DNA from: Alphaproteobacteria bacterium
Lineage (GTDB): Bacteria; Pseudomonadota; Alphaproteobacteria; Puniceispirillales; Marisalimonadaceae
DNA length: 64,000 nucleotides
Reading direction: 5' to 3'
Assembly (NCBI GenBank): GCA_004213885.1
Contig: SGYL01000001.1
Span: 62,001 to 126,000 of the forward strand
The position numbers were made by a program, and so were the translations under genes. The notes beneath the pieces are model-generated. The model saw nothing but the letters and a program-made list of their open reading frames with translations. It ran no database searches and was not told where the DNA came from. Below are positions 3,261 to 59,490 of the stretch, in pieces (the first letter of the stretch is position 1; each line of letters opens with the position of its first letter).

Positions 3261-5381
3261 TTAAAATAAAGAATTTAACCCATAATCTCCTAAGTTTTTA
3301 AGACTTAAAGTTAAAAAGATGGAATTTTCTGGTAGGATATCTCGGTCGGGTGCTCCATCTTTATTTTTATAACTAAGTTTTAATGATAGACAATCTTGGA
3401 ACATATATTCACCAACATAATCTAAAAGAATTTCTTCTTCGATTAATTCTGCATCATTGTTATTCAAATCATATTTATTAGTATAACTTAATTTCCAGTT
3501 ATCTATTTTTTTACCAATAGAGAATTGAATTTCTTCTCTATCAGAATTATCACTCATCAAATTATTATTTACAGACCTATGAATTAAATTATAGTAAAAA
3601 TTCGAATACTCTCCAGATAACTCTAAATTTGTATAGTTGGTTTCTAAGTTATGATGATCGAAAAGTGCGTTATAAGATAAATTAAATTCTTTAGAGCTCA
3701 TCCATTGGATTTCAGTGATAAAGTCTGATTGTCTATTAGAAGTAGTATCTATAATATTTTGGTTTGTTCCACCAATTTTCTGACTTTGCCCAAAGAAAAG
3801 CGAAAAAGATCCAATATCTGTATCGAGATCATTATCAATACCAAAGTTTAATCTTTGATTTGTTTGGATGTTATCTCTACCTTGGTATTGATTGATTAAG
3901 AATAAATTAGCATGGTCAACTCTAAAATCTGAAGAGTCACGATTAGGAACATCATTTTTTCTATTTGTACTATGCATTGAAACGATTTGTACCTTTGGTG
4001 TCATTAACAAATCATGTTGACCAATATTAAAAATAAAATCTTTTTTTGATAGAACACTTACACCTAATGACAATCTGTCCAGATATTTATTATTATTAGT
4101 ATCTGAAGATGGTCTATTATTAATAGCATAAAGATCAAGTCCTGTTTCTGCACTTAACATTAAATCTATAAATTTATTATTAACTTTATGTTCTAATATT
4201 CCAGAGCCTGACCATCTTTGAATATCATAGCCTTCATCATCCTTGATTTCATGAGCATTTAAAGAAATTTCAGAGTTAATGTTTTTATCGTTTAAAAATA
4301 TTTTATGTTTTATAGATGGTTGAAGGTTTGGTTGATTGTTTTTTGTATCAACTTCTAGGTTTTTATATTTATACCATTCAATTTCAGAAAAGGAATTATT
4401 TGAAATTTTATTTGTTTTTATAAAATTTTTATAACTTGTCGAATCGTCGAAATTATATCTCCTCATAAAAGTATCTTGATCTGAATATTTCCCTGAAGCA
4501 TTAATGTTCCAATTACTTTCAAGTTTACCATCAAAATATAAATTTCCTGAAAAAACTTTATCTTCATCTTCGTTACTAGTATCTACTTGACCTTGAAATA
4601 AATTTGTTTCTAAGAAACCAGATGGATATTTTTTTCTAACATTTAATTGGTTTATATATCCATTTTTTCCTTTAAAGTGATTTGTAAAAGTAGAGTCCCA
4701 ACTTTCATCTTCAGTTGTGAAATAATATGGTATTGTTGATTCTAGACCATTTCTATTTGAATAACCAATTGAAGGCACAAGAAAACCACTTTTTCTTCTA
4801 ACTGACGGATCAGGAGTACTCAAATAAGGAATATAAAAAAGAGGATAATCCATAATTTTTAAAACAACATTTTTAAAATAAATCATTTTTTCTAATTTAT
4901 CGTGAGTTATTTCACTTGTGTTAAGTTGCCAAACTGGTTTTTCTCCATTTTTAAAATCACAATTACATGGAGTATATTCACCATTAAAAAATACAAATCT
5001 GTCTGATGTTTTTGAGAGTTTTGAAGCTTTTAATTTTGAATTATCTTTAAATTTAGTAAACAAAGTTAAAGCTAATATATCTTTAAATTCATTTGTTAAA
5101 ATTATTTCTGATGTCTCAATAATTGTTCCGTCATTGCTAATAATTGATATATTTCCAGATGCTGTTGCTTTGTCTAAAGATTTATCATATTTGACTTTGT
5201 CTGCTTTAATTGTTTCTTTTTTAGATTTAATTACCACATTTCCTTTAGCAATCATTAAATTTTTATTCTCATCAACCTCTAGACTATCGCTAGTAAATTC
5301 AACATTATTATTGGTATTATCTTGGGAATAAGAAGACACTGAAAAAAGAAAAAGAGATAATATTAAAATTATAAATTTCAT
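3261..5381 (-). CDS. lptD: LPS-assembly protein LptD
   Basis: This 706-residue outer-membrane protein inserts lipopolysaccharide into the outer leaflet together with LptE. A signal peptide covers about residues 1-19 (hydrophobic core, then SVSSYSQ). Residues about 28-130 form the periplasmic OstA/LptA-like beta-jellyroll, with repeats such as IAKGNVVIKSKKETIKADKV. The rest is a long beta-barrel rich in alternating aromatic and polar strands. A CNC cysteine pair lies near residue 138 (YTPCNCDF) and a further cysteine near the C-terminus, so disulfide pairing between the jellyroll and the barrel end is possible. It ends next to the convergent NIPSNAP stop. The usual neighbours surA, pdxA and rsmA are absent. 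Confidence 0.9.
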   Translation of the reverse strand: MKFIILILSLFLFSVSSYSQDNTNNNVEFTSDSLEVDENKNLMIAKGNVVIKSKKETIKADKVKYDKSLDKATASGNISIISNDGTIIETSEIILTNEFKDILALTLFTKFKDNSKLKASKLSKTSDRFVFFNGEYTPCNCDFKNGEKPVWQLNTSEITHDKLEKMIYFKNVVLKIMDYPLFYIPYLSTPDPSVRRKSGFLVPSIGYSNRNGLESTIPYYFTTEDESWDSTFTNHFKGKNGYINQLNVRKKYPSGFLETNLFQGQVDTSNEDEDKVFSGNLYFDGKLESNWNINASGKYSDQDTFMRRYNFDDSTSYKNFIKTNKISNNSFSEIEWYKYKNLEVDTKNNQPNLQPSIKHKIFLNDKNINSEISLNAHEIKDDEGYDIQRWSGSGILEHKVNNKFIDLMLSAETGLDLYAINNRPSSDTNNNKYLDRLSLGVSVLSKKDFIFNIGQHDLLMTPKVQIVSMHSTNRKNDVPNRDSSDFRVDHANLFLINQYQGRDNIQTNQRLNFGIDNDLDTDIGSFSLFFGQSQKIGGTNQNIIDTTSNRQSDFITEIQWMSSKEFNLSYNALFDHHNLETNYTNLELSGEYSNFYYNLIHRSVNNNLMSDNSDREEIQFSIGKKIDNWKLSYTNKYDLNNNDAELIEEEILLDYVGEYMFQDCLSLKLSYKNKDGAPDRDILPENSIFLTLSLKNLGDYGLNSLF

Positions 5382-5418
5382 TTAGTTATAATAGCTAATA
5401 TTTAAAATAATGAACACT

Positions 5419-6870
5419 TTATATTAGAATTTTCCCTGGGTTCATAATATTTTTTGGATCAATCATATTTTTTATATTTTTCATTAAATCATATGCTACT
5501 GGGTCTTTAAAAAATCTTAGATTATCTTTTTTTAATTGTCCAATGCCATGTTCTGCAGAAAAAGATCCATTTAATTTTTCAATAATTTTATAGATGTTTT
5601 CAGTTATATTTTGTGATTGGTTTTCAAATCCATCATCTCCTTTGCCATTCCCAAATATATTGTAATGCAAGTTTCCATCCCCCAAATGACCAAAGAAAAT
5701 TGTTCTTGTATTTTTTATTTTTGTGGAGATCATTTTTTGAGTTTCTTGATGAAATTTTTCTATATTATTTATTGGCAAAGAAATATCATGTTTAAGACAT
5801 TTTTTGGCATGAGAATTTATTAATTCTTTTTTTTCATTTTCAGCGGCATTTTCTCTAATTTCCCATAATTTATTTCTTTCTAAGTCATTTTTACAAATTA
5901 TTGCATCCTCAATCCATTCTTCATCTAATGCTTTTGATAGAAGATGTTCAAGTTTTTCGTGCAGAAATGTTGTCCCTTCGTTATTGACCAAAGTATCATT
6001 TGTAGATGTTGTTGTTAATTCTAACAAAACGCCCATTTCGGGCATTTTGTTAAATGGAAGTGACAAGTTTTTTGTATTATTTGATGCCACTTCCCAAAAA
6101 ACTTTTGGCATAAGTTCAAACGCTTCCAGTTCGTTTTTTAATTCTTGTTCAAAAAGGTTCAAAAGTTTTATTGCATTATTTATTGAGAGCGTTTCAACAA
6201 AAGAAGTAATACTTAATTTTGATTTTGGAAATAATTTCATGGTAGCAGCTGTAATTATTCCAAGAGTTCCTTCAGCGCCAATAAAAATATTTTTCAAATC
6301 GTAACCAGTGTTATCTTTTTTAAGTATTTTTAACAAGTCCATTATATCACCGTTAGGTAAAACAACTTCTAAACCTAAACATAGATCTCTTGTGTTGCCA
6401 TATTTTAAGACATTTATACCCCCAGCATTTGTAGATAAGTTTCCACCAATTGTACATGAGCCTTTAGCTCCTAAACTAAGTGGGAAAAAAAGACCATTCT
6501 TTTCAACTTGTTCATGAATGATACTTAAAATAACTCCTGGTTCTAAAGTTATTGTCATTGATTCTTTATCTATAGCAATAATATTATTCATTTTTTCAGT
6601 ACTTATAATAATTGAAAAAGAATTTTTAAGAGGGGTTGCACCACCACAAAGGCTTGTATTTCCTCCTTGGGGAACAATTGAAATTTCATTATCATTAGCA
6701 AACTTTAAAATCTTTGATACTTCATATTTATCATGAGGTTTTAAAATTGCTATTGCATCTCCAATATACTGTTCTCTCCAATCTTTGGTATATTTAAGAT
6801 GATCTTCAATATCAAAAATAGGTTTAGATTTTAAATTCAAAGAAGTTATTATTTTTTTATAATCATTCAT
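5419..6870 (-). CDS. FAD-linked D-2-hydroxyacid dehydrogenase (GlcD/D2HGDH family)
   Basis: A 483-residue flavoprotein of the VAO/PCMH fold. The N-terminal FAD-binding half contains VPQGGNTSLCGGATP near residue 68, TLEPGVI near residue 108 and LSTNAGGINVLKYGNTRD near residue 145. The C-terminal FAD-oxidase domain ends with FFGHLGDGNLHYN and AEHGIGQLKKD, which carry the metal- and substrate-binding histidines of this family. The full-length D2HGDH-like pattern suggests oxidation of D-2-hydroxyglutarate or D-lactate, passing electrons to an electron-transfer flavoprotein or quinone. It overlaps the CysQ-Sua5 gene by 8 bases, so the two are probably co-transcribed. The exact substrate is not shown. 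Confidence 0.85.
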   Translation of the reverse strand: MNDYKKIITSLNLKSKPIFDIEDHLKYTKDWREQYIGDAIAILKPHDKYEVSKILKFANDNEISIVPQGGNTSLCGGATPLKNSFSIIISTEKMNNIIAIDKESMTITLEPGVILSIIHEQVEKNGLFFPLSLGAKGSCTIGGNLSTNAGGINVLKYGNTRDLCLGLEVVLPNGDIMDLLKILKKDNTGYDLKNIFIGAEGTLGIITAATMKLFPKSKLSITSFVETLSINNAIKLLNLFEQELKNELEAFELMPKVFWEVASNNTKNLSLPFNKMPEMGVLLELTTTSTNDTLVNNEGTTFLHEKLEHLLSKALDEEWIEDAIICKNDLERNKLWEIRENAAENEKKELINSHAKKCLKHDISLPINNIEKFHQETQKMISTKIKNTRTIFFGHLGDGNLHYNIFGNGKGDDGFENQSQNITENIYKIIEKLNGSFSAEHGIGQLKKDNLRFFKDPVAYDLMKNIKNMIDPKNIMNPGKILI

Positions 6871-8638
6871 TAAAAGATGCTCTTTTTAATCTATCATTTA
6901 AAGCCTTTCCAATTCCTATGCTTGGAATAGGTAAAACTTGAATAAATTTTAAGTCTAATTTATCTAAATACCTTAACCCTTCATAAAGTAAATGGGAAGC
7001 CTCAAATAAATTTTCAGATAAGCTTAAATTGAAAATATGTTTACAATTTTTAAAAGCTATTGGAAGTTTGCCAAAACTTAAACAAGCTGAACCAGTTATA
7101 TATTTTTTTTGGTTTAATAAAACTTTAGTTTTAGGAGCATAATGTTTTTGTAACATGCCAGGCGATATTAATTCATCTGAGAAATTTTTATTTGTTACTT
7201 TAATACCCAAAACGTCTTCTATGTTTTTTAGTGTAATAAATCCCTCTCTTAAAATTACAGGAAGTTCATTTCTACAATCCAAAACTGATGATTCAATACC
7301 AACTTCACACCCATTAAAATCTAAAATATCAGAAATTTCCCAAGTTGGGCCATGTAATTTTTTAAAGTCTTGTTTCACATGTTCAGCAGAAGTTGGGCTA
7401 ATGCCTCCAGATTTATTTGCACTAGGCGCTAAAATAGGGAGTTCACATTTTGATATTAAGTCTAAAGCTACTGGATGAGAAGGAATTCTTACTGCAAGTG
7501 TATTTTTTCCTCTTGATAAAGTTTTTGAAAATCGATTTTTTTCATTAACATTTAGAACCATTGTTAAAGGACCAGGCCAAAAATTAGCAGCGAGTCTATT
7601 AGCTAGATCTGTAAAAATTACATATTTTTTTACTTGCTCTAGGGAAGAAAAATGTGCAATTAGTGGATTGTTTTGTGGTCTATTTTTTGCTGCATAAATT
7701 GCAGAGATAGCGTTTTCACTAGTGCCGATGGCTCCCAATCCAAAAACTGTTTCAGTAGGGAAAACAACAAGTTTTCCATTTTTTAAGGAGCTTGATGCAG
7801 TTTCAATTCTTTTTAAATAAAACTTATAATCTTCAATATTTTCTAAAAAATATTTGGATAATGGAAAGTTTTTATAATTACTAAAAGCTATGAAGTTATC
7901 ATTTTTAAAATGATTTTTCCCATAATATAATTCTAATCCGTTAATAGTAAAAATATTACCGCCACTTGCTTTTAAAATACTATGTCCTGCAGCTGTGTCC
8001 CACTCCATTGTTGGTATCGATCTTGGGTAAATATCATACTTACCCTCCGCAAGATAACAAAATTTAAGACTTGATCCTATATGTGAAATTTTTAATGGAT
8101 TAATCACATTTAGCCAATTTTTTATACCTGATTTTAAGTTTGTAGAACTACAAATCATATTGAGTTTATTGTAATTTATAGTTTTAGGTTGTAATTCTTT
8201 AGCATCTAAAATGTTATATGTTTTTTTAATTTTATATGCTTTATTATTGTTGTTAAACCAAACAGAAGAAGTTGTTGGTTGACATATAATTCCAAAAACA
8301 GGTTTGTTATTTGATATTAATGCAAAATTAATTGTAAAAAAACCACTTTTAGTTATGAATTCTTTAGTCCCATCTATAGGATCAATAAGCCAATATTTAG
8401 TCATATCAACTTCATTTAAATTAGTTATGTTTTCCTCAGATATTATTTTATCATTAGGAAACATTTCAGAAAGTTTATTAGTTGCGATTCTACTAATTTC
8501 TAAATCAGCTTTTGTTACAGGTGAGTTATCATCTTTAATAGATACTTCAAGTTTTTTTTGTTTATAAAAAGTTAATGCAACAGCACTGCATTCTTCAATT
8601 ATTTTGATAATGTTTTTGATTTCTTCGTATTTAATCAT
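6863..8638 (-). CDS. fusion of CysQ-type 3'(2'),5'-bisphosphate nucleotidase and Sua5 threonylcarbamoyl-AMP synthase
   Basis: One 591-residue frame carries two enzymes. Residues 1-265 are an inositol-monophosphatase-family domain of the CysQ type, with the metal motif DPIDGTKEF near residue 86 and WDTAAGHS near 213; CysQ hydrolyses adenosine 3',5'-bisphosphate from sulfate assimilation. Residues about 275-591 are Sua5/YrdC, with KNGKLVVFPTETVFGLGA near 286, KNRPQNNPL and APSANKSGG, plus the Sua5 C-terminal signature SPGMLQKHYAP; this enzyme makes threonylcarbamoyl-AMP for tRNA t6A37. No methionine lies between the domains, so no separate ATG start is available. The gene overlaps its upstream and downstream neighbours by 8 bases each. 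A real fusion is the simplest reading. Confidence 0.85.
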   Translation of the reverse strand: MIKYEEIKNIIKIIEECSAVALTFYKQKKLEVSIKDDNSPVTKADLEISRIATNKLSEMFPNDKIISEENITNLNEVDMTKYWLIDPIDGTKEFITKSGFFTINFALISNNKPVFGIICQPTTSSVWFNNNNKAYKIKKTYNILDAKELQPKTINYNKLNMICSSTNLKSGIKNWLNVINPLKISHIGSSLKFCYLAEGKYDIYPRSIPTMEWDTAAGHSILKASGGNIFTINGLELYYGKNHFKNDNFIAFSNYKNFPLSKYFLENIEDYKFYLKRIETASSSLKNGKLVVFPTETVFGLGAIGTSENAISAIYAAKNRPQNNPLIAHFSSLEQVKKYVIFTDLANRLAANFWPGPLTMVLNVNEKNRFSKTLSRGKNTLAVRIPSHPVALDLISKCELPILAPSANKSGGISPTSAEHVKQDFKKLHGPTWEISDILDFNGCEVGIESSVLDCRNELPVILREGFITLKNIEDVLGIKVTNKNFSDELISPGMLQKHYAPKTKVLLNQKKYITGSACLSFGKLPIAFKNCKHIFNLSLSENLFEASHLLYEGLRYLDKLDLKFIQVLPIPSIGIGKALNDRLKRASFNE

Positions 8639-9248
8639 TTTTTTTACTGTAGTAATGCCATAACAACAAAGCAGCAGACCCCCTAAAAGGTCTCCATTTT
8701 TCTGCTATATTATTTGCTTCATTTTCATCAGGCCTTAAATCTAAATTTTTTAAACTTTTAATGGCTTCTTGAACGGCTAAATCACCACCGGGCCAAGCAT
8801 CACAATCTTCTAATACAAATAATTGATAATTATTAATTGTCCATTTGCCAATACCTTTAATTTTTATAAGAGAATTATATACAACATCTGAAGATGATTT
8901 TTTAAACTCATTTAAGTTAATTTTTTTTTCATTAATATTTTTTGCTAAGTCTTTAATGTATATAATTTTTCTAAATGATAAACCTAGATTTTTTAAATAT
9001 TTGTTATCAGTGTTCAAAAAGTTTTTATCTGTAGTGATCTTTTTTTCTTTAAGTTTTTGATATATACTTTCAGCTGCTTTTCTAGAAATTTGTTGGCCAA
9101 TTATTATTCTCATTAAAGTTTCAAAAGTGTTACTTTCCTTTCGTGAATCTGGGAGGTTGTGTGTGTTAATTATATATTTCAAGTCGTTATCTAATTCACT
9201 TAGTTCTTTAAAACTATTTAAAATTTTTAGGGACCAGTTTTTTTTCAT
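8631..9248 (-). CDS. DNA-3-methyladenine glycosylase (AlkA/HhH-GPD family)
   Basis: A 205-residue base-excision glycosylase that would remove alkylated purines from DNA. It shows the family entry FETLMRIIIGQQISRKAAES near residue 43, the helix-hairpin-helix LIKIKGIGKWTINNY near 130, and the catalytic aspartate in CDAWPGGDLAVQ near 151, followed by EKWRPFRGSAALLLW. The lack of FeS cysteines excludes endonuclease III. It heads a three-gene leftward operon with the CysQ-Sua5 fusion and the FAD dehydrogenase, overlapping the former by 8 bases. Its length is that of the short bacterial AlkA forms without an Ada-like domain. Confidence 0.85.
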   Translation of the reverse strand: MKKNWSLKILNSFKELSELDNDLKYIINTHNLPDSRKESNTFETLMRIIIGQQISRKAAESIYQKLKEKKITTDKNFLNTDNKYLKNLGLSFRKIIYIKDLAKNINEKKINLNEFKKSSSDVVYNSLIKIKGIGKWTINNYQLFVLEDCDAWPGGDLAVQEAIKSLKNLDLRPDENEANNIAEKWRPFRGSAALLLWHYYSKKND

Positions 9249-9290
9249 TTTTTTTATATATTAGTTTCAAAATCTATTTAATAATAAACT

Positions 9291-9929
9291 ATGATTTGGG
9301 ATTTAAACATTAGAATTTTCCATTTAATGTTAATCATAACAATAATTATATCAATAATATCAGGAAAATTTTCTTATTTCTATATTCATGAAATTTCAGG
9401 AATAACTTTATTTTTTTTAATTTTATATAGAATTTATTGGGGTTTTTTTGGTGGCTATTATTCAAAGTTTAAAAATTTTAATTTTAACAAGAATTCTTTA
9501 TTCAATTATTTTAAAAATAAAGAGAAAAAATATTTTGGACATAATCCACTTGGTTCATTATCTATATTTTCAATTTTTGTATTAATTTTATTAACATCTT
9601 TGTCTGGTATGTTTTCTTCAGATGATATTTTTTATGATGGGCCATTTGTAAAATTGGCACCTCAATTAGTTGGAATTTTTACAAATATTCATGATATTTT
9701 GCATTATTTTTTATACTTATTAATAATTCTTCATTTAAGTGCTGTAAGTTATTATCAATTTTTTTTAAAAGAAAAAATAATTAATCAAATGATTGATGGA
9801 AAATCTAAGGATAAAAATTTTATACAAAAAGATCATCCATCAAAAAAAAATGGTTATGCGTTATTATTTCTAATTTTAATTTTTATTGGGCCATCTATTT
9901 TTTACTATTTAACCAATATCTGGAATTAA
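9291..9929 (+). CDS. cytochrome b561-type dihaem membrane protein
   Basis: A 212-residue integral membrane protein with four or more hydrophobic helices. Histidines fall where haem ligands are expected: IRIFHLML in the first helix, YIHEISG in the second, and NIHDILHYF with ILHLSAV in the third and fourth. A final helix lies near the C-terminus. This is the cytochrome b561/Ni-Fe hydrogenase b-subunit fold, which passes electrons between the quinone pool and periplasmic partners. No c-type cytochrome lies next to it. Its last 21 bases overlap the convergent GlcG-like gene, also a putative haem-binding protein. The partner is unknown. Confidence 0.75.
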   Translation: MIWDLNIRIFHLMLIITIIISIISGKFSYFYIHEISGITLFFLILYRIYWGFFGGYYSKFKNFNFNKNSLFNYFKNKEKKYFGHNPLGSLSIFSIFVLILLTSLSGMFSSDDIFYDGPFVKLAPQLVGIFTNIHDILHYFLYLLIILHLSAVSYYQFFLKEKIINQMIDGKSKDKNFIQKDHPSKKNGYALLFLILIFIGPSIFYYLTNIWN

Positions 9930-55174: not shown

Positions 55175-55942
55175 TTAACCTACAAAAGCTTTTTCTAAAA
55201 CAAATGTGTCAGGTCTATTTGTAGCTCCTTCTTGAAATCCTTTTTCGATAAGTAGATTTTTTAATTCATTGTTAAAGTCTAAAGATCCACAAATCATTGC
55301 ACAATCAGTTGAGAAATTTAGATCATCTAATTTTAAGTCAATATAGAATGATTTATTTTGAATGTTATTTGTAATTCTTCCAGTATATTCTGATTTTTCT
55401 TGAGTTGTCGATTTGTAATATATTAATTTGTCTTCAATAAAACTTTTTAACATTTCATTATTAATGCATTCATTAATTATTTTTTCACTATAATGTAACT
55501 CATTTTTGAATCTACAGGTGTGAGTTACTATAATTTTTTCAAATTTATCATATGTTTCGGGATCTCTTATAATTGAAGAGAAAGGAGCAAACCCAGTACC
55601 TGTTGAAAAAAGAAAAAGTCTTTTTCCAGGTTTTAATGCGTCTAAAATTAATGTTCCAGTAGATTTAGACATTAATATAATTTCATCATTAATTTTAATA
55701 TTTTTTAATTTAGATGTTAATGGACCATTTTCTACTATTATTGAATAAAATTCTAACTTTTCATCCCAACTTGGGGAACAAATTGAGTAAGCTCTTAAAA
55801 TAGGTTTATCACTATTTGGTAGTCCAATCATTACAAATTCTCCAGATTTAAATTTAAAATCTTTTGGTCTTTCAATTTGAAATGAAAATAAAGTATCAGT
55901 CCAATGTGTTATTGATAAAACTTTTAGTAAAAATTTGCTCAT
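55175..55942 (-). CDS. fpr: ferredoxin-NADP reductase
   Basis: A 255-residue FAD enzyme exchanging electrons between NADPH and ferredoxin or flavodoxin. The FAD site is RAYSICSPSWDEKLEFYSI near residue 50, the NADP loop is LFSTGTGFAPFSSIIRD near 110, and the C-terminus ends RPDTFVLEKAFVG, matching the bacterial Fpr ending with a terminal aromatic-glycine pattern. It overlaps the upstream epimerase-like gene by 4 bases. In this cell it could supply Fe-S assembly or cobalamin reduction (inference). Confidence 0.93.
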   Translation of the reverse strand: MSKFLLKVLSITHWTDTLFSFQIERPKDFKFKSGEFVMIGLPNSDKPILRAYSICSPSWDEKLEFYSIIVENGPLTSKLKNIKINDEIILMSKSTGTLILDALKPGKRLFLFSTGTGFAPFSSIIRDPETYDKFEKIIVTHTCRFKNELHYSEKIINECINNEMLKSFIEDKLIYYKSTTQEKSEYTGRITNNIQNKSFYIDLKLDDLNFSTDCAMICGSLDFNNELKNLLIEKGFQEGATNRPDTFVLEKAFVG

Positions 55943-56760
55943 AATTTTAATTCTTTTTTTAATAATGAATTTAAAAATTTATCAACCTTTGGATGAATGA
56001 ACTTATAACCTAAATCATCGCTCAATCTATTGCTATATACTTTTTTTGACACTTGATAAAAGGACTTAATATTTTTCTTTATTGATTTATTGTCATAACT
56101 AATCTTTGTTGGTTTAGGTATAGAGAATTTTTTGCTTAATTTATCAATAAGATCAAAATTATCAATAAAAAAACTATCAGTTGCATTTATTATACCATCA
56201 ATATTTTTAGCTTTTATGATACTAAAAATTATTCCTACGAGATCTTCTATATGAATTCTATTAGTGAAGTGATTTTTTTTAAAAATAATTTTATGATCAC
56301 CCTTTAAGAATTTTGTTAAAATGTTACTTGAATTACTATAGATACCACCCGATCTAATAATAACAGTTTTGTCACTTATATTCTGCCACTGTTTCTCAAT
56401 TGATAATCTCCTAATTCCAAGTTCTGTTGTTGGCTTAGCTATTGTCAATTCATCTACATTTCCACTTTGGTAAACAGATGTTGATGAAATATATATGATC
56501 CTAGAAAATGAATTTAAGTTTGATATTGGTATATTTTTTAATATAAAATCTTCACCTTTTTCGTTAGGTGGTACAGTAGAAATTAATATTGAATCAGAAA
56601 GATTTAATTTATTTTTAAAAAAATCTATTTTTAAAAATTCATAATTTAAAAAGTTACGAGTATTTCTAGAAACAATCTTAAAATTTATATTTTTATCATT
56701 TGAAAGTTTTTTTGCTAGCTCTTTACTAACTTGACCAAAGCCAAAAATAAAAATTGTCAT
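55939..56760 (-). CDS. NAD(P)-dependent epimerase/dehydratase-like protein
   Basis: A 273-residue extended short-chain dehydrogenase. The N-terminal dinucleotide loop reads IFGFGQVSKELAKKL near residue 4, which is a GxGxxxxxL variant typical of the YeeZ subgroup. SSTSVYQSG near 91 provides the active-site serine, but the usual YxxxK is replaced by a RRLSIEKQW region near 133. VIIRSGGIYSNSSN and the HIEDLVGII segment are typical. The substrate is unknown. Its start overlaps nothing, and its stop overlaps the fpr start by 4 bases. A B12 riboswitch lies on the other strand. Confidence 0.75.
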   Translation of the reverse strand: MTIFIFGFGQVSKELAKKLSNDKNINFKIVSRNTRNFLNYEFLKIDFFKNKLNLSDSILISTVPPNEKGEDFILKNIPISNLNSFSRIIYISSTSVYQSGNVDELTIAKPTTELGIRRLSIEKQWQNISDKTVIIRSGGIYSNSSNILTKFLKGDHKIIFKKNHFTNRIHIEDLVGIIFSIIKAKNIDGIINATDSFFIDNFDLIDKLSKKFSIPKPTKISYDNKSIKKNIKSFYQVSKKVYSNRLSDDLGYKFIHPKVDKFLNSLLKKELKL

Positions 56761-56805
56761 AATTTTATTTACTTTTTAAATCTTATATATTTATAATTAA
56801 CTAAT

Positions 56806-57010
56806 GTATAGGTGCTTTGAACTTATGTTCAAGCTTAAAATGGGAAATTGGTAATGTCATTGACGAAGCCAATACTGTACCCGCAACTGTATGTGAAGCG
56901 TTAAAACAAAAACCACTGAGCAATCGGGAAGGTGTTTTAACTGGATCACAAGTCAGGAGACCTGCCTTACATTGTCGCTTATTAAATTGTCGGGATAACA
57001 ATTTATGCGT
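56806..57010 (+). ncRNA. cobalamin (B12) riboswitch
   Basis: Conserved blocks appear in order: GGGAAATTGGT (56842), GACGAAGCC (56862), ACCCGCAACTGT (56879), CCACTG with CGGGAAGG (56916 to 56933) and the B12 box AGTCAGGAGACCTGCC (56951-56966). P5 can form from ATAC and GTAT around TGTACCCGCAACT. A 7-bp hairpin AAATTGT/ACAATTT at 56984-57004 shows loop CGGGATA, whose CGGG can pair with CCCG in loop L5, the L5-L13 kissing pair known for this class. No poly-U terminator follows, so control of translation is more likely. It lies in front of the btuB-like gene; two small ORFs inside it are artefacts. Confidence 0.95.
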
Positions 57011-57056
57011 AGATATCGTTTAGCGACGTCAAACATGATTGAGCTAGGAGGTATTA

Positions 57057-59009
57057 ATGTTCAAATACATTTTCTTAATTTTTATTTTTATTTTTACAAA
57101 TTTCAATGTTTATTCAAAAAGCTCTGATGAAAACCTAATTAACATAAGGGTTACTCCTAGTAGAATTGACAAAGGTATAATAGGTGCAAATACAAAAATT
57201 ATTACGCAAAAGGATATTAATAAAAAATCATACAGTGATTTAAATGATATATTATCTCGCGAAAGCGGAATTCAGCTAGAAAGTCTATATGGTGGAATTG
57301 ATGGTGCAAAGTCATCTGTTAAATTAAGAGGATTTGGAGAATATGCATCAAGAAATGTTTTATTTTTATTAAATGGAAGAAGATTTACAGATATTACTCT
57401 AGGAAAAGTAAATTTGGCAAGAATACCAATCAATACTATAAAAAGAATTGAAATAATTAAGGGTGGTGTTGCTTCCACATTGTTTGGTGACGGCGCATCA
57501 GGTGGTGCAGTAAATATTATTACTGATGCAAAATTTTTCTTTAAAAATAAAGTTGACGTAATTGCTGGATCTGGATCACTCAATAGTAATAAACAGTCAG
57601 TAATATTTAACCAAAATTACAAAGACTTATACTTGAATGGAAATTTTATAAGCTCAAAAAGTGATGGTTACAGAGATAATAACGAATATGATTTTAAAAA
57701 TGAAAAATTTTCTGTTACTAAAATTTTTGATTTATATAATCTTTTTACTATTGAAGTGGAAACAGCAAACCAAAAAGTACGTTTACCTGGGGGTTTGTCG
57801 TTAACAGATTATTATTTAAATCCAAAAAAAACAAATAAACCAACTGAATATGCAAATGAGAATATTAGAAATATTGGTTTAACGTTTGAAAAAAAAATAA
57901 ATAGTAATCATTTTTTTAAGTCAGATTTATATCTAGAGGATAAAAAACAACAAACTTTTCAAGCTCTATTTGGGAATGATTACATGATAAATTATGGTAT
58001 AAATTCTTATAATTTAAAAAATGAATTACAAATTCCATATAAGCTTTTAAATAAAAGGATAGTTTCTAAATTAGGCTTAGACATTAATAAAGCATTTTAT
58101 AAAAAAAAGCAGATTATACCTTCTACTTACTTTAATACAGTCAATCAATTGATATTAGAACCCTGGATTAGTTCAAATTTAGCGTTTAATAAAACTTTAA
58201 AATTTAATTTAGGATATAGATTTCATAATTATAAATTAAATGTTTATGACAAAACTAATGAAAGAAACAAATTATTAGATAAAAATCAAACTTCTAATGC
58301 ATGGTCAATAGGGGTAACAAATCGCATAAATAATAGTTCTTCAATTTTTGGTAATTTATCAAATTCTTACAGGGCGCCTAGAGTTGATGAAATTGTTAAT
58401 ACTAGTGCTACTCCAACAGTAAATCATATACTTCATCAAAGGTCTGAAGAATTAGAACTAGGTCTAAAACAAAACTTTAAAACATTAGATTCAAAATTAT
58501 CAATTTTTAGAAAAAATATAAAAAATCAAATTTATATGAATCCATCTACATTCAAAAATGAAAACTATGATCCTTCTACACATGAAGGCATAGATTTTGA
58601 AGTTAATAAAAAGTTTTTTGAAGATAAAATTAACGTATCATTCAACTTTTCATTAAATGATTCTTATTTTAGTGAAGGAAACTTTAAAAATAAAAAAGTC
58701 CCAAATGTAGCAAAATTTACTTCAAATGGGCAAGTTGAATATAACCTAGATCCTGATTTAAAAATATATTTAGATCATAAATATGTTGGTAATAAGTTTG
58801 AGCTTGGTGATGAAGCTAATACAAAATCAAAAAAAGCAAAGTCATATTCAATTTTTAATCTTGGAATCAATGGAATTTATAGTGGCTTCGACACAAAACT
58901 AAATATCACAAATGTTTTTGACAAAAAATATTATGATTTCAAAACATATGGTCAAGTCTATCCTTTACCAGGGAGAGGAGTTATGTTAACTCTTAAAAAG
59001 GAATTTTAA
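57057..59009 (+). CDS. btuB: TonB-dependent outer-membrane receptor, probably for cobalamin (BtuB-like)
   Basis: A 650-residue TonB-dependent receptor that uses proton-motive energy from TonB-ExbBD to import a large ligand. A signal peptide covers about residues 1-21. The plug shows IDKGIIGANTKIITQKDI, the SGIQLESLYGGIDGAKSSVKLRGFG block near 72 and IKRIEIIKGGVASTLFGDGASGGAVNI near 128. The rest is a 22-stranded-type barrel ending in LTLKKEF with terminal phenylalanine. The riboswitch upstream makes cobalamin or a related corrinoid the likely ligand. AGGAGG precedes the ATG. A DUF6580 gene follows after 1 base. Confidence 0.88.
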   Translation: MFKYIFLIFIFIFTNFNVYSKSSDENLINIRVTPSRIDKGIIGANTKIITQKDINKKSYSDLNDILSRESGIQLESLYGGIDGAKSSVKLRGFGEYASRNVLFLLNGRRFTDITLGKVNLARIPINTIKRIEIIKGGVASTLFGDGASGGAVNIITDAKFFFKNKVDVIAGSGSLNSNKQSVIFNQNYKDLYLNGNFISSKSDGYRDNNEYDFKNEKFSVTKIFDLYNLFTIEVETANQKVRLPGGLSLTDYYLNPKKTNKPTEYANENIRNIGLTFEKKINSNHFFKSDLYLEDKKQQTFQALFGNDYMINYGINSYNLKNELQIPYKLLNKRIVSKLGLDINKAFYKKKQIIPSTYFNTVNQLILEPWISSNLAFNKTLKFNLGYRFHNYKLNVYDKTNERNKLLDKNQTSNAWSIGVTNRINNSSSIFGNLSNSYRAPRVDEIVNTSATPTVNHILHQRSEELELGLKQNFKTLDSKLSIFRKNIKNQIYMNPSTFKNENYDPSTHEGIDFEVNKKFFEDKINVSFNFSLNDSYFSEGNFKNKKVPNVAKFTSNGQVEYNLDPDLKIYLDHKYVGNKFELGDEANTKSKKAKSYSIFNLGINGIYSGFDTKLNITNVFDKKYYDFKTYGQVYPLPGRGVMLTLKKEF

Positions 59010-59010
59010 T

Positions 59011-59490
59011 ATGAAGAATGTAATTTTAATTTTTTTATGTATTTTATCTATAATATTTTTTTCTAGAGTTTTACCGCACCTTCCAAATTTTACTCCAGTT
59101 ATTTCATTAGCCATATATTCGTCATTTTTCTTGAAACGACTAGGTATGATTTCATTTTTAATTTCATATTTATTTGTAGATATGTATTTAGGGCTCAATT
59201 CAATTTTGATTTGGACGTGGGGTTCTTTTTTAATTATTTTATATTTATCAAATTTTATAAAAAATATAAATCATAGAATTTTAGCAATATTTTCTATGCC
59301 AACAATCTTCTTTTTGATAACAAATTTTGGTGTTTGGACTACCGGATATTATGATTTAACTTTTCAGGGTTTATTAAAATGCTACACTATGGCTTTACCA
59401 TTTTATGCAAATACATTAGTAAGTACAGCTTTCTTTAGTTTGTTAATTGAATTTATAATTTTATTTAAAAAAAGAATTTTCCAAACTTAA
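59011..59490 (+). CDS. DUF6580-family membrane protein, candidate inner-membrane corrinoid transporter component
   Basis: A 159-residue protein with five to six hydrophobic segments. The pattern SRVLPHLPNFTPVISLAIYS near residue 19, FVDMYLGLNSILIWTWGSF near 55, and FLITNFGVWTTGYYDLTFQG with CYTMALPFYANTLVS near 100-140 matches the DUF6580 membrane family, whose size and shape recall substrate-binding S components of ECF transporters. It begins 1 base after the btuB-like stop and so is under the B12 riboswitch. No BtuCDF genes are in the window. A role in moving cobalamin or a precursor over the inner membrane is inference. Confidence 0.75.
   Translation: MKNVILIFLCILSIIFFSRVLPHLPNFTPVISLAIYSSFFLKRLGMISFLISYLFVDMYLGLNSILIWTWGSFLIILYLSNFIKNINHRILAIFSMPTIFFLITNFGVWTTGYYDLTFQGLLKCYTMALPFYANTLVSTAFFSLLIEFIILFKKRIFQT

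Follow-up and report, generated by a model that had tools for sequence, protein, structure and literature searches.

Vitamin B12 limits many marine microbes, and we know of no carrier assigned to the inner-membrane step of its uptake in most auxotrophs without BtuCDF. The closest described systems are small membrane proteins related to the S-components of ECF transporters. BtuM, as portrayed in PMC6072759, binds and chemically alters cobalamin, and its gene is described there as pairing with btuR; ECF-CbrT (PDB 6fnp) is described as B12-specific in PMC5997447, and cobinamide is a further substrate of both BtuM and CbrT (PMC6072759, PMC5997447). In marine sequences, B12 riboswitches have been described before btuB and before genes of unknown function (PMC2211319), and some SAR116 subclades without cobalamin synthesis are reported to have cobalamin transport (PMC12262181). 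A literature search retrieved no paper containing the name DUF6580.

Here we analysed a 64,000-nucleotide stretch of DNA (hereinafter the window) from an alphaproteobacterial genome, G000 (1.41 Mb, 16 contigs, 84% complete; absences there are provisional). A first-pass annotation had placed a TonB receptor and a DUF6580 membrane protein under one B12 riboswitch. The locus is likely a minimal operon for B12 uptake in a SAR116-type bacterium that requires cobalamin but does not synthesise it, and in which DUF6580 serves as the inner-membrane corrinoid carrier replacing BtuCDF. This reading draws on the operon layout, the linkage to riboswitches, the replacement of btuFCD at one locus, the lack of both cbiC and an ECF T-component, and the predicted fold.

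Results

Organisation of the riboswitch-receptor-DUF6580 locus

The locus comprises five features in the window:

56792-56983, + strand: cobalamin riboswitch aptamer, RF00174 (cmscan 92.1 bits, cut-off 31.5; model positions 1-189, complete)
57007-57060, + strand: likely expression platform hairpin (MFE structure of 56984-57062, z -2.59)
57057-59009, + strand: BtuB-like TonB-dependent receptor, 650 aa (Pfam Plug and TonB_dep_Rec)
58998-59002, + strand: AAGGA, Shine-Dalgarno-like, inside the end of btuB, 8 bases before the DUF6580 ATG
59011-59490, + strand: DUF6580 (PF20221), a membrane protein of 159 aa with six helices that resembles S-components and is proposed to carry corrinoids

The riboswitch, the single RF00174 match in a whole-genome search of G000, does precede the receptor and DUF6580 genes as annotated; the start assigned to the feature, 56806, falls 14 bases inside the aptamer. 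The hairpin between aptamer and btuB sequesters most of the Shine-Dalgarno sequence AGGAGG (57046-57051) together with the btuB start codon, and an equally good folding arose in 1 of 200 shuffles. Because it takes up both elements, the modelled hairpin suggests that it is the switch and that control is translational. The best NCBIfam model for the receptor is the TonB-dependent B12 receptor (TonB-B12), whose score of 112.8 bits lies below the curated cut-off of 599.7, so that the label BtuB-like is right and BtuB is not certified.

The DUF6580 product matches PF20221 with an E-value of 3.8e-27 (95.9 bits, cut-off 27) and is the sole copy in G000. The reported spacing of 1 base between the two genes is correct, the btuB-like stop ending at 59009 and the DUF6580 ATG beginning at 59011, and the AAGGA motif makes translational coupling from btuB to DUF6580 possible. 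No terminator-like site lies between the receptor and DUF6580 genes, the one match (58572-58588) being inside the receptor gene. G000 encodes methylmalonyl-CoA mutase, and a demand for cobalamin therefore exists. Upstream of the riboswitch lies a divergent epimerase gene (55939-56760), whose product is 26-27% identical to the kind of epimerase found in two relatives described below (G059 and G053).

Linkage and exclusion patterns among related genomes

Whole-genome searches of 61 relatives detected PF20221 in 32 and RF00174 in 51. Each of the 32 DUF6580 genes shares its contig with a riboswitch and lies 1.9-2.8 kb from the riboswitch end; 29 follow it on the same strand and three, all from one family, are convergent with it, btuB and a tonB-like gene intervening in the one of the three that was examined in full (L148). 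Location within 3 kb of a riboswitch, observed in 32 of 32 cases, would be expected by chance at about 0.4% per genome. The proposed joint control by cobalamin gains computational support from this linkage and from the lack of an intergenic terminator-like site.

The 51 riboswitch genomes divide without overlap into 32 with DUF6580, 13 with cbiC, four in which a FecCD permease follows at a distance of about 3 kb and two whose contigs stop just past btuB or tonB. DUF6580 and CbiC never occur together, cbiC being found in 0/32 genomes with DUF6580 versus 14/29 without it (Fisher p 3e-6, a value that overstates independence since the relatives are kin and many are incomplete). The 24 relatives that are at least 90% complete include six with DUF6580, 12 with CbiC, four with the permease and two (G021, G039) with none; in G039 (99% complete), a riboswitch and btuB occur without DUF6580 or a strong FecCD permease, and the contig ends 19 bases past btuB. 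Searches for an ECF T-component (CbiQ/EcfT, PF02361) gave 0 hits in the 61 genomes and were positive in 10 of 14 controls. DUF6580 therefore probably acts alone, by analogy with BtuM.

Wider distribution of DUF6580 in bacteria

DUF6580 scores over its cut-off in six of 397 proteobacterial genomes, G000 included. In four of the other five (G290, G490, G383 and the SAR11-like G415, where the riboswitch score is sub-threshold), the gene lies about 2 kb behind a same-strand cobalamin riboswitch; in the fifth, G480, no riboswitch is nearby and the riboswitches are on another contig. Cobalamin riboswitches over the cut-off are common in this sample (359/397), so it is the position of DUF6580 relative to the riboswitch that counts. 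The predicted enrichment of DUF6580 near B12 riboswitches is thus borne out in SAR116 relatives (32/32) and in other proteobacteria (4/5). G490 carries an extended operon, riboswitch-btuB-DUF6580-Dph6/DUF71-like-BtuF-like (Peripla_BP_2)-PduO adenosyltransferase, and the presence of DUF6580 and an adenosyltransferase in one operon recalls the btuM-btuR pairing.

A species-wide scan identified at least 568 relatives, of which the best 80, nearest to the SAR116 profile and hence biased, were taken. A TonB receptor lies within 1.5 kb of DUF6580 in 67 of these best 80 (of at least 568) genome loci, and in 61 of them it immediately precedes DUF6580 on the same strand. These counts come from a general TonB-receptor profile that was built from 15 receptors, the counted loci having supplied several, and that does not imply a B12 ligand. 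No receptor was detected within 1.5 kb at the other 13 of the best 80, some of which are cut or have the riboswitch on the opposite strand; the receptor-less loci include Bacteroidota (L074, L112), WWE3 (L113) and SAR86 (L099). Among 12 non-alphaproteobacterial loci searched with Rfam, a cobalamin riboswitch lies within 4 kb in six. In three Omnitrophota, it coincides with the end of DUF6580 or follows closely, with a same-strand TonB receptor downstream (one confirmed by Pfam), and in three Neomarinimicrobiota it lies on the strand opposite DUF6580; the Bacteroidota, WWE3 and SAR86 loci have no cobalamin riboswitch within 4 kb (Rfam). Some DUF6580 genes are therefore outside a B12 context, and not every DUF6580 need have a corrinoid substrate.

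Replacement of btuFCD by DUF6580

Four relatives carry btuFCD behind btuB, two of them (G059 and G048) in the order riboswitch-btuB-btuF-btuC-btuD. In G059, whose permease has BtuC as its best NCBIfam model, below that model's cut-off, the series continues with an epimerase and an aldolase gene. G053 has the order riboswitch-btuB-DUF6580-epimerase-aldolase, the epimerases of the two genomes being 56% and the aldolases 77% identical, and no FecCD permease match was found in this 100% complete genome. At this one locus, a single DUF6580 gene takes the place of btuFCD.

No strong FecCD permease was found in 23 of the 32 relatives with DUF6580 (G000 and G053 included); nine have one elsewhere in the genome. 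In the two of these nine examined, the permease has zinc/iron-type operon neighbours; the FecCD permease of the nine could in principle move corrinoids. The refuting condition named at the outset, btuCDF under another B12 riboswitch of the same genome, did not arise: G000 has one riboswitch, and its best FecCD match (21.2 bits) is below the cut-off and lies in a ZnuB-like gene. Weak FecCD matches (18-41 bits) were taken to be permeases of ABC-3 type, from this one example.

Riboswitch control would fit any role in B12 supply, and the uptake of cobinamide by BtuM and CbrT makes mixed substrates plausible, so that the cargo of DUF6580 might be not cobalamin but cobalt, or else a precursor or a product of salvage (cobinamide, alpha-ribazole, DMB). 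We regard this as unlikely, since DUF6580 occupies the btuFCD position of sister genomes and has a TonB receptor beside it in 67 of the best 80 (of at least 568) genome loci. The DUF6580 genomes, none of which has cbiC (0/32), would gain little from cobalt alone, and the riboswitches examined in cbiC relatives precede genes that we take to be cobW/cobN, HupE-like and CbtA-like, not DUF6580. Of the inner-membrane transport functions suggested by the first-pass annotation, that for a corrinoid is supported by computation; cobalt and DMB are the weaker candidates because cbiC is absent and btuFCD is replaced.

Predicted fold and conserved residues of DUF6580

When the AlphaFold model of the window protein (mean pLDDT 90.7) was compared in VIA, the best 12 rows were all ECF S-components (Z 11.8-13.3) and the next row scored 6.0. 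The best 22 rows for the G490 protein (pLDDT 92.5) were S-components or CbiM (Z 10.4-14.8), with the next unrelated row at 8.4, and BtuM with cobalamin was matched at Z 14.7 and 14.6 (8ovv: Z 14.7, rmsd 2.7, 162 residues). According to the VIA scale notes, helical bundles can reach a Z of about 13, and the gap to the next rows is therefore a stronger argument than Z itself; the Foldseek E-values of the two models, 1.1 (window) and 0.045 (G490), are not significant. A six-helix S-component fold is supported by these predictions, and the resemblance to S-components noted at the outset is backed by two models with clear matches to S-components only.

At the sequence level, neither the window protein nor a first profile (A1) matched the PDB. 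A second profile (A2) from 28 diverse DUF6580 sequences retrieved one PDB sequence at E<=10, 6fnp_A, with a marginal E-value of 0.0079, and hhalign gave a likewise marginal 71% over 59 columns for CbrT. Six residues (R19, D57, N105, Y114, P130 and F131) are invariant in 166 sequences (165 distinct ones and the window protein), H23 is kept in 165 and C124 in 164. Most conserved residues map to three loops of the model (1, 3 and 5) or to their edges; by analogy with S-components, these would be the outward loops. The C124 position is occupied by Ala in G290 (L122) and Ser in L194, and a role for C124 as a required cobalt ligand is weakened by these substitutions.

The near-invariant Cys (164/166) and His (165/166) could touch cobalt, BtuM itself chemically alters cobalamin, and nine DUF6580 relatives carry another FecCD permease; each of these points would suit a membrane-bound cobalamin handler, such as a decyanating or chaperone factor or a receptor helper, with transport left to another permease. 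Such a role seems quite improbable, given that 23 of the 32 DUF6580 relatives, including G000 and G053, have no strong FecCD permease, that the predicted fold is that of carriers and that the G290 gene with Ala at the Cys position still lies behind a B12 riboswitch.

AdoCbl-II riboswitches in SAR11 and phage operons

In SAR11, btuB-DUF6580 is preceded by a different riboswitch class, AdoCbl-II (RF01689, listed as a marine motif in PMC2864571), at nine of 12 loci (Rfam). RF00174 also matches SAR11 genomes weakly (21.7-33.6 bits); these matches resembled decayed riboswitches, a reading that was rejected, as they coincide with AdoCbl-II where coordinates were compared (L066). A riboswitch model (R1) was built from 14 RNAs, nine from SAR11 and five viral, which match it by construction; it is found in 30 of the best 80 (of at least 568) genome loci at E<2e-5, nine of them training sequences.

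DUF6580 is also encoded on viral contigs (99 of 119 pattern matches, 80 of which were kept). AdoCbl-II lies right before DUF6580 in six of 24 viral loci according to Rfam, and model R1 matches 16 of the 80 at E<1e-8, five being training sequences. By the general TonB-receptor profile, 28 of the 80 have a same-strand receptor gene next to DUF6580 (20 after, eight before), and none was detected within 1.5 kb in the other 52. The 80 loci form 53 clusters at 90% identity; a riboswitch occurs in 10 of these (in the case of L238 with E 0.01 only), a receptor in 17 and both in seven. Contigs of T4-like marine phages contain riboswitch-DUF6580-receptor operons, in which the gene order is reversed relative to bacterial btuB-DUF6580; Pfam identifies Plug and barrel domains in the receptor. 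On contigs L228 and L188, the operon stands beside genes for terminase, single-strand binding protein and UvsX-like recombinase, or for primase and DnaB-like helicase; the L228 protein has no match among 50,697 isolate phage records. In L259, one of the 16 riboswitch matches, DUF6580 is joined to a prepilin-like stretch; this contig may be bacterial and was left out of the phage argument.

A marine myophage with a glutamine riboswitch, whose OM43 host has a cobalamin riboswitch before btuB (PMC9004378), and a marine megaphage with a SusC-type receptor (PMC9723777) have been described. Our search of the literature on phage AMGs, TonB receptors and cobalamin riboswitches found no description of a phage operon of the present kind.

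Were DUF6580 merely carried on the btuB transcript with an unrelated role, one might expect family members outside any B12 context, and part of the family is indeed found there. The pairing, nevertheless, recurs independently in four contexts (behind RF00174 in SAR116 and further proteobacteria, with AdoCbl-II in SAR11, in Omnitrophota and in phages) and persists though gene order and riboswitch class change, which leaves very little room for a bystander.

Discussion

With DUF6580 as the inner-membrane corrinoid carrier, the operon would work as follows. At low cellular cobalamin, the riboswitch would free the btuB start, and the BtuB-like receptor would pass cobalamin through the outer membrane. 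DUF6580, translated right after the receptor, would move cobalamin through the inner membrane instead of BtuCDF, binding the corrinoid in a periplasm-facing pocket of loops L1, L3 and L5, like BtuM, and turning over in the membrane with no ATPase to drive it. Intracellular trapping could keep uptake net inward, either through adenosylation or through capture by enzymes and by a BtuF-like protein of the cytosol. From the genomic patterns and models we infer transport itself, its substrate, the pocket, the trapping and the lack of energy coupling.

With somewhat less confidence, we favour a broader reading in which DUF6580 is a second family of solitary B12 carriers, with no detectable sequence kinship to BtuM, and the two-gene module is the inner-membrane route of SAR116 and SAR11. 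Marine T4-like phages would have adopted it as a riboswitch-controlled accessory operon, apparently raising the cobalamin of the infected cell; the operon suggests that viruses manipulate host vitamin uptake. If true, two lineages that rank among the most abundant in the ocean would have a named inner-membrane B12 carrier, a family that Pfam lists without a function would gain a testable role, and a third S-component-type solution to B12 uptake would stand beside BtuM and CbrT.

BtuCDF occupies the same operon position as DUF6580, behind riboswitch and btuB, and is replaced by it in G053. The two differ in fold and composition, BtuCDF being an unrelated, ATP-driven system of three subunits and DUF6580 one protein without ATPase or binding protein. 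CbrT (Lactobacillus delbrueckii, 6FNP) shares the S-component fold with DUF6580, is the one PDB sequence that profile A2 retrieved, at a marginal E-value, and belongs to Pfam ECF_trnsprt, not DUF6580. It needs an ECF module, its solitary form giving no growth support in the account of PMC5997447, whereas EcfT/CbiQ is found in 0 of the 61 related genomes. Solitary BioY, described in PMC6072759, is a precedent for S-component transport without an ECF module, for biotin and in a sequence family other than DUF6580.

BtuM (Thiobacillus denitrificans; 6FFV, 8C7P, 8OVV) is, like DUF6580, a small six-helix solitary S-component-like protein from a host without an ECF module, and shares its B12 context, being co-localised with btuB or an adenosyltransferase. 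Profiles A1 and A2 retrieved no BtuM chain from all of PDB at E<=10. A search of 20 riboswitch-led stretches from other proteobacteria yielded no BtuM sequence, so the two proteins are compared by fold only. BtuM overlays on predicted DUF6580 over 162-164 residues at 2.7-2.8 Å with about 14% identity. The conserved residues set them apart: BtuM has an invariant Cys in loop 3, as given in PMC6072759, where no Cys is conserved between TM3 and TM4 of DUF6580, whereas DUF6580 has a near-invariant Cys in loop 5 (TM5-TM6) and a nearly invariant R..PH..N in loop 1.

Phage-borne DUF6580 operons

On T4-like marine viral contigs, an AdoCbl-II riboswitch, a DUF6580 gene and a TonB receptor gene form one operon, which is a putative B12-uptake module carried by phage. 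Phage contig L188 also encodes a ferredoxin reductase-like protein with 40% identity to a counterpart near the window's operon.

about 5785-8360, viral contigs L228, L188, L197, L237 and L221: AdoCbl-II/DUF6580/TonB receptor operon
8637-9440, L188: ferredoxin reductase-like protein
55175-55942, window: ferredoxin reductase-like protein

A Rieske-type oxygenase subunit is likewise encoded on L188. By eye, the DUF6580 surroundings on a 153-kb contig binned as Neomarinimicrobiota (L104, 1-11751) have a phage-like look.

Binding proteins, importers and other DUF6580 settings

Three loci encode BtuF-like Peripla_BP_2 proteins, with DUF6580 adjoining the gene in one case and sharing its operon in one. 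No obvious N-terminal signal peptide was seen by eye in these three proteins, which may possibly serve as a corrinoid trap in the cytosol.

646-1431, L178 (genome holding the window)
6483-7277, L116
3829-4752, L174

Two DUF6580-bearing SAR116 genomes have a second FecCD importer, probably devoted to metal uptake; judging by sequence, the genes next to it would encode a Fur/Zur-like protein and a GTPase of the COG0523-like type.

5056-8272, L176: FecCD importer locus
5289-8505, L177: FecCD importer locus

Two further settings are an ORF fusing DUF6580 to a prepilin-like C-terminal part, preceded by a weaker AdoCbl-II match, and an IMES-1 RNA near DUF6580.

6004-7284, L259: DUF6580/prepilin-like ORF
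8045-8237, L099 (SAR86 contig): IMES-1 RNA

AdoCbl-II leads the btuB-DUF6580 operons of SAR11 (about 3540-4020 in loci L050, L055, L057, L102, L059, L071, L054, L066 and L061), whereas the SAR116 counterparts use the RF00174 class instead.
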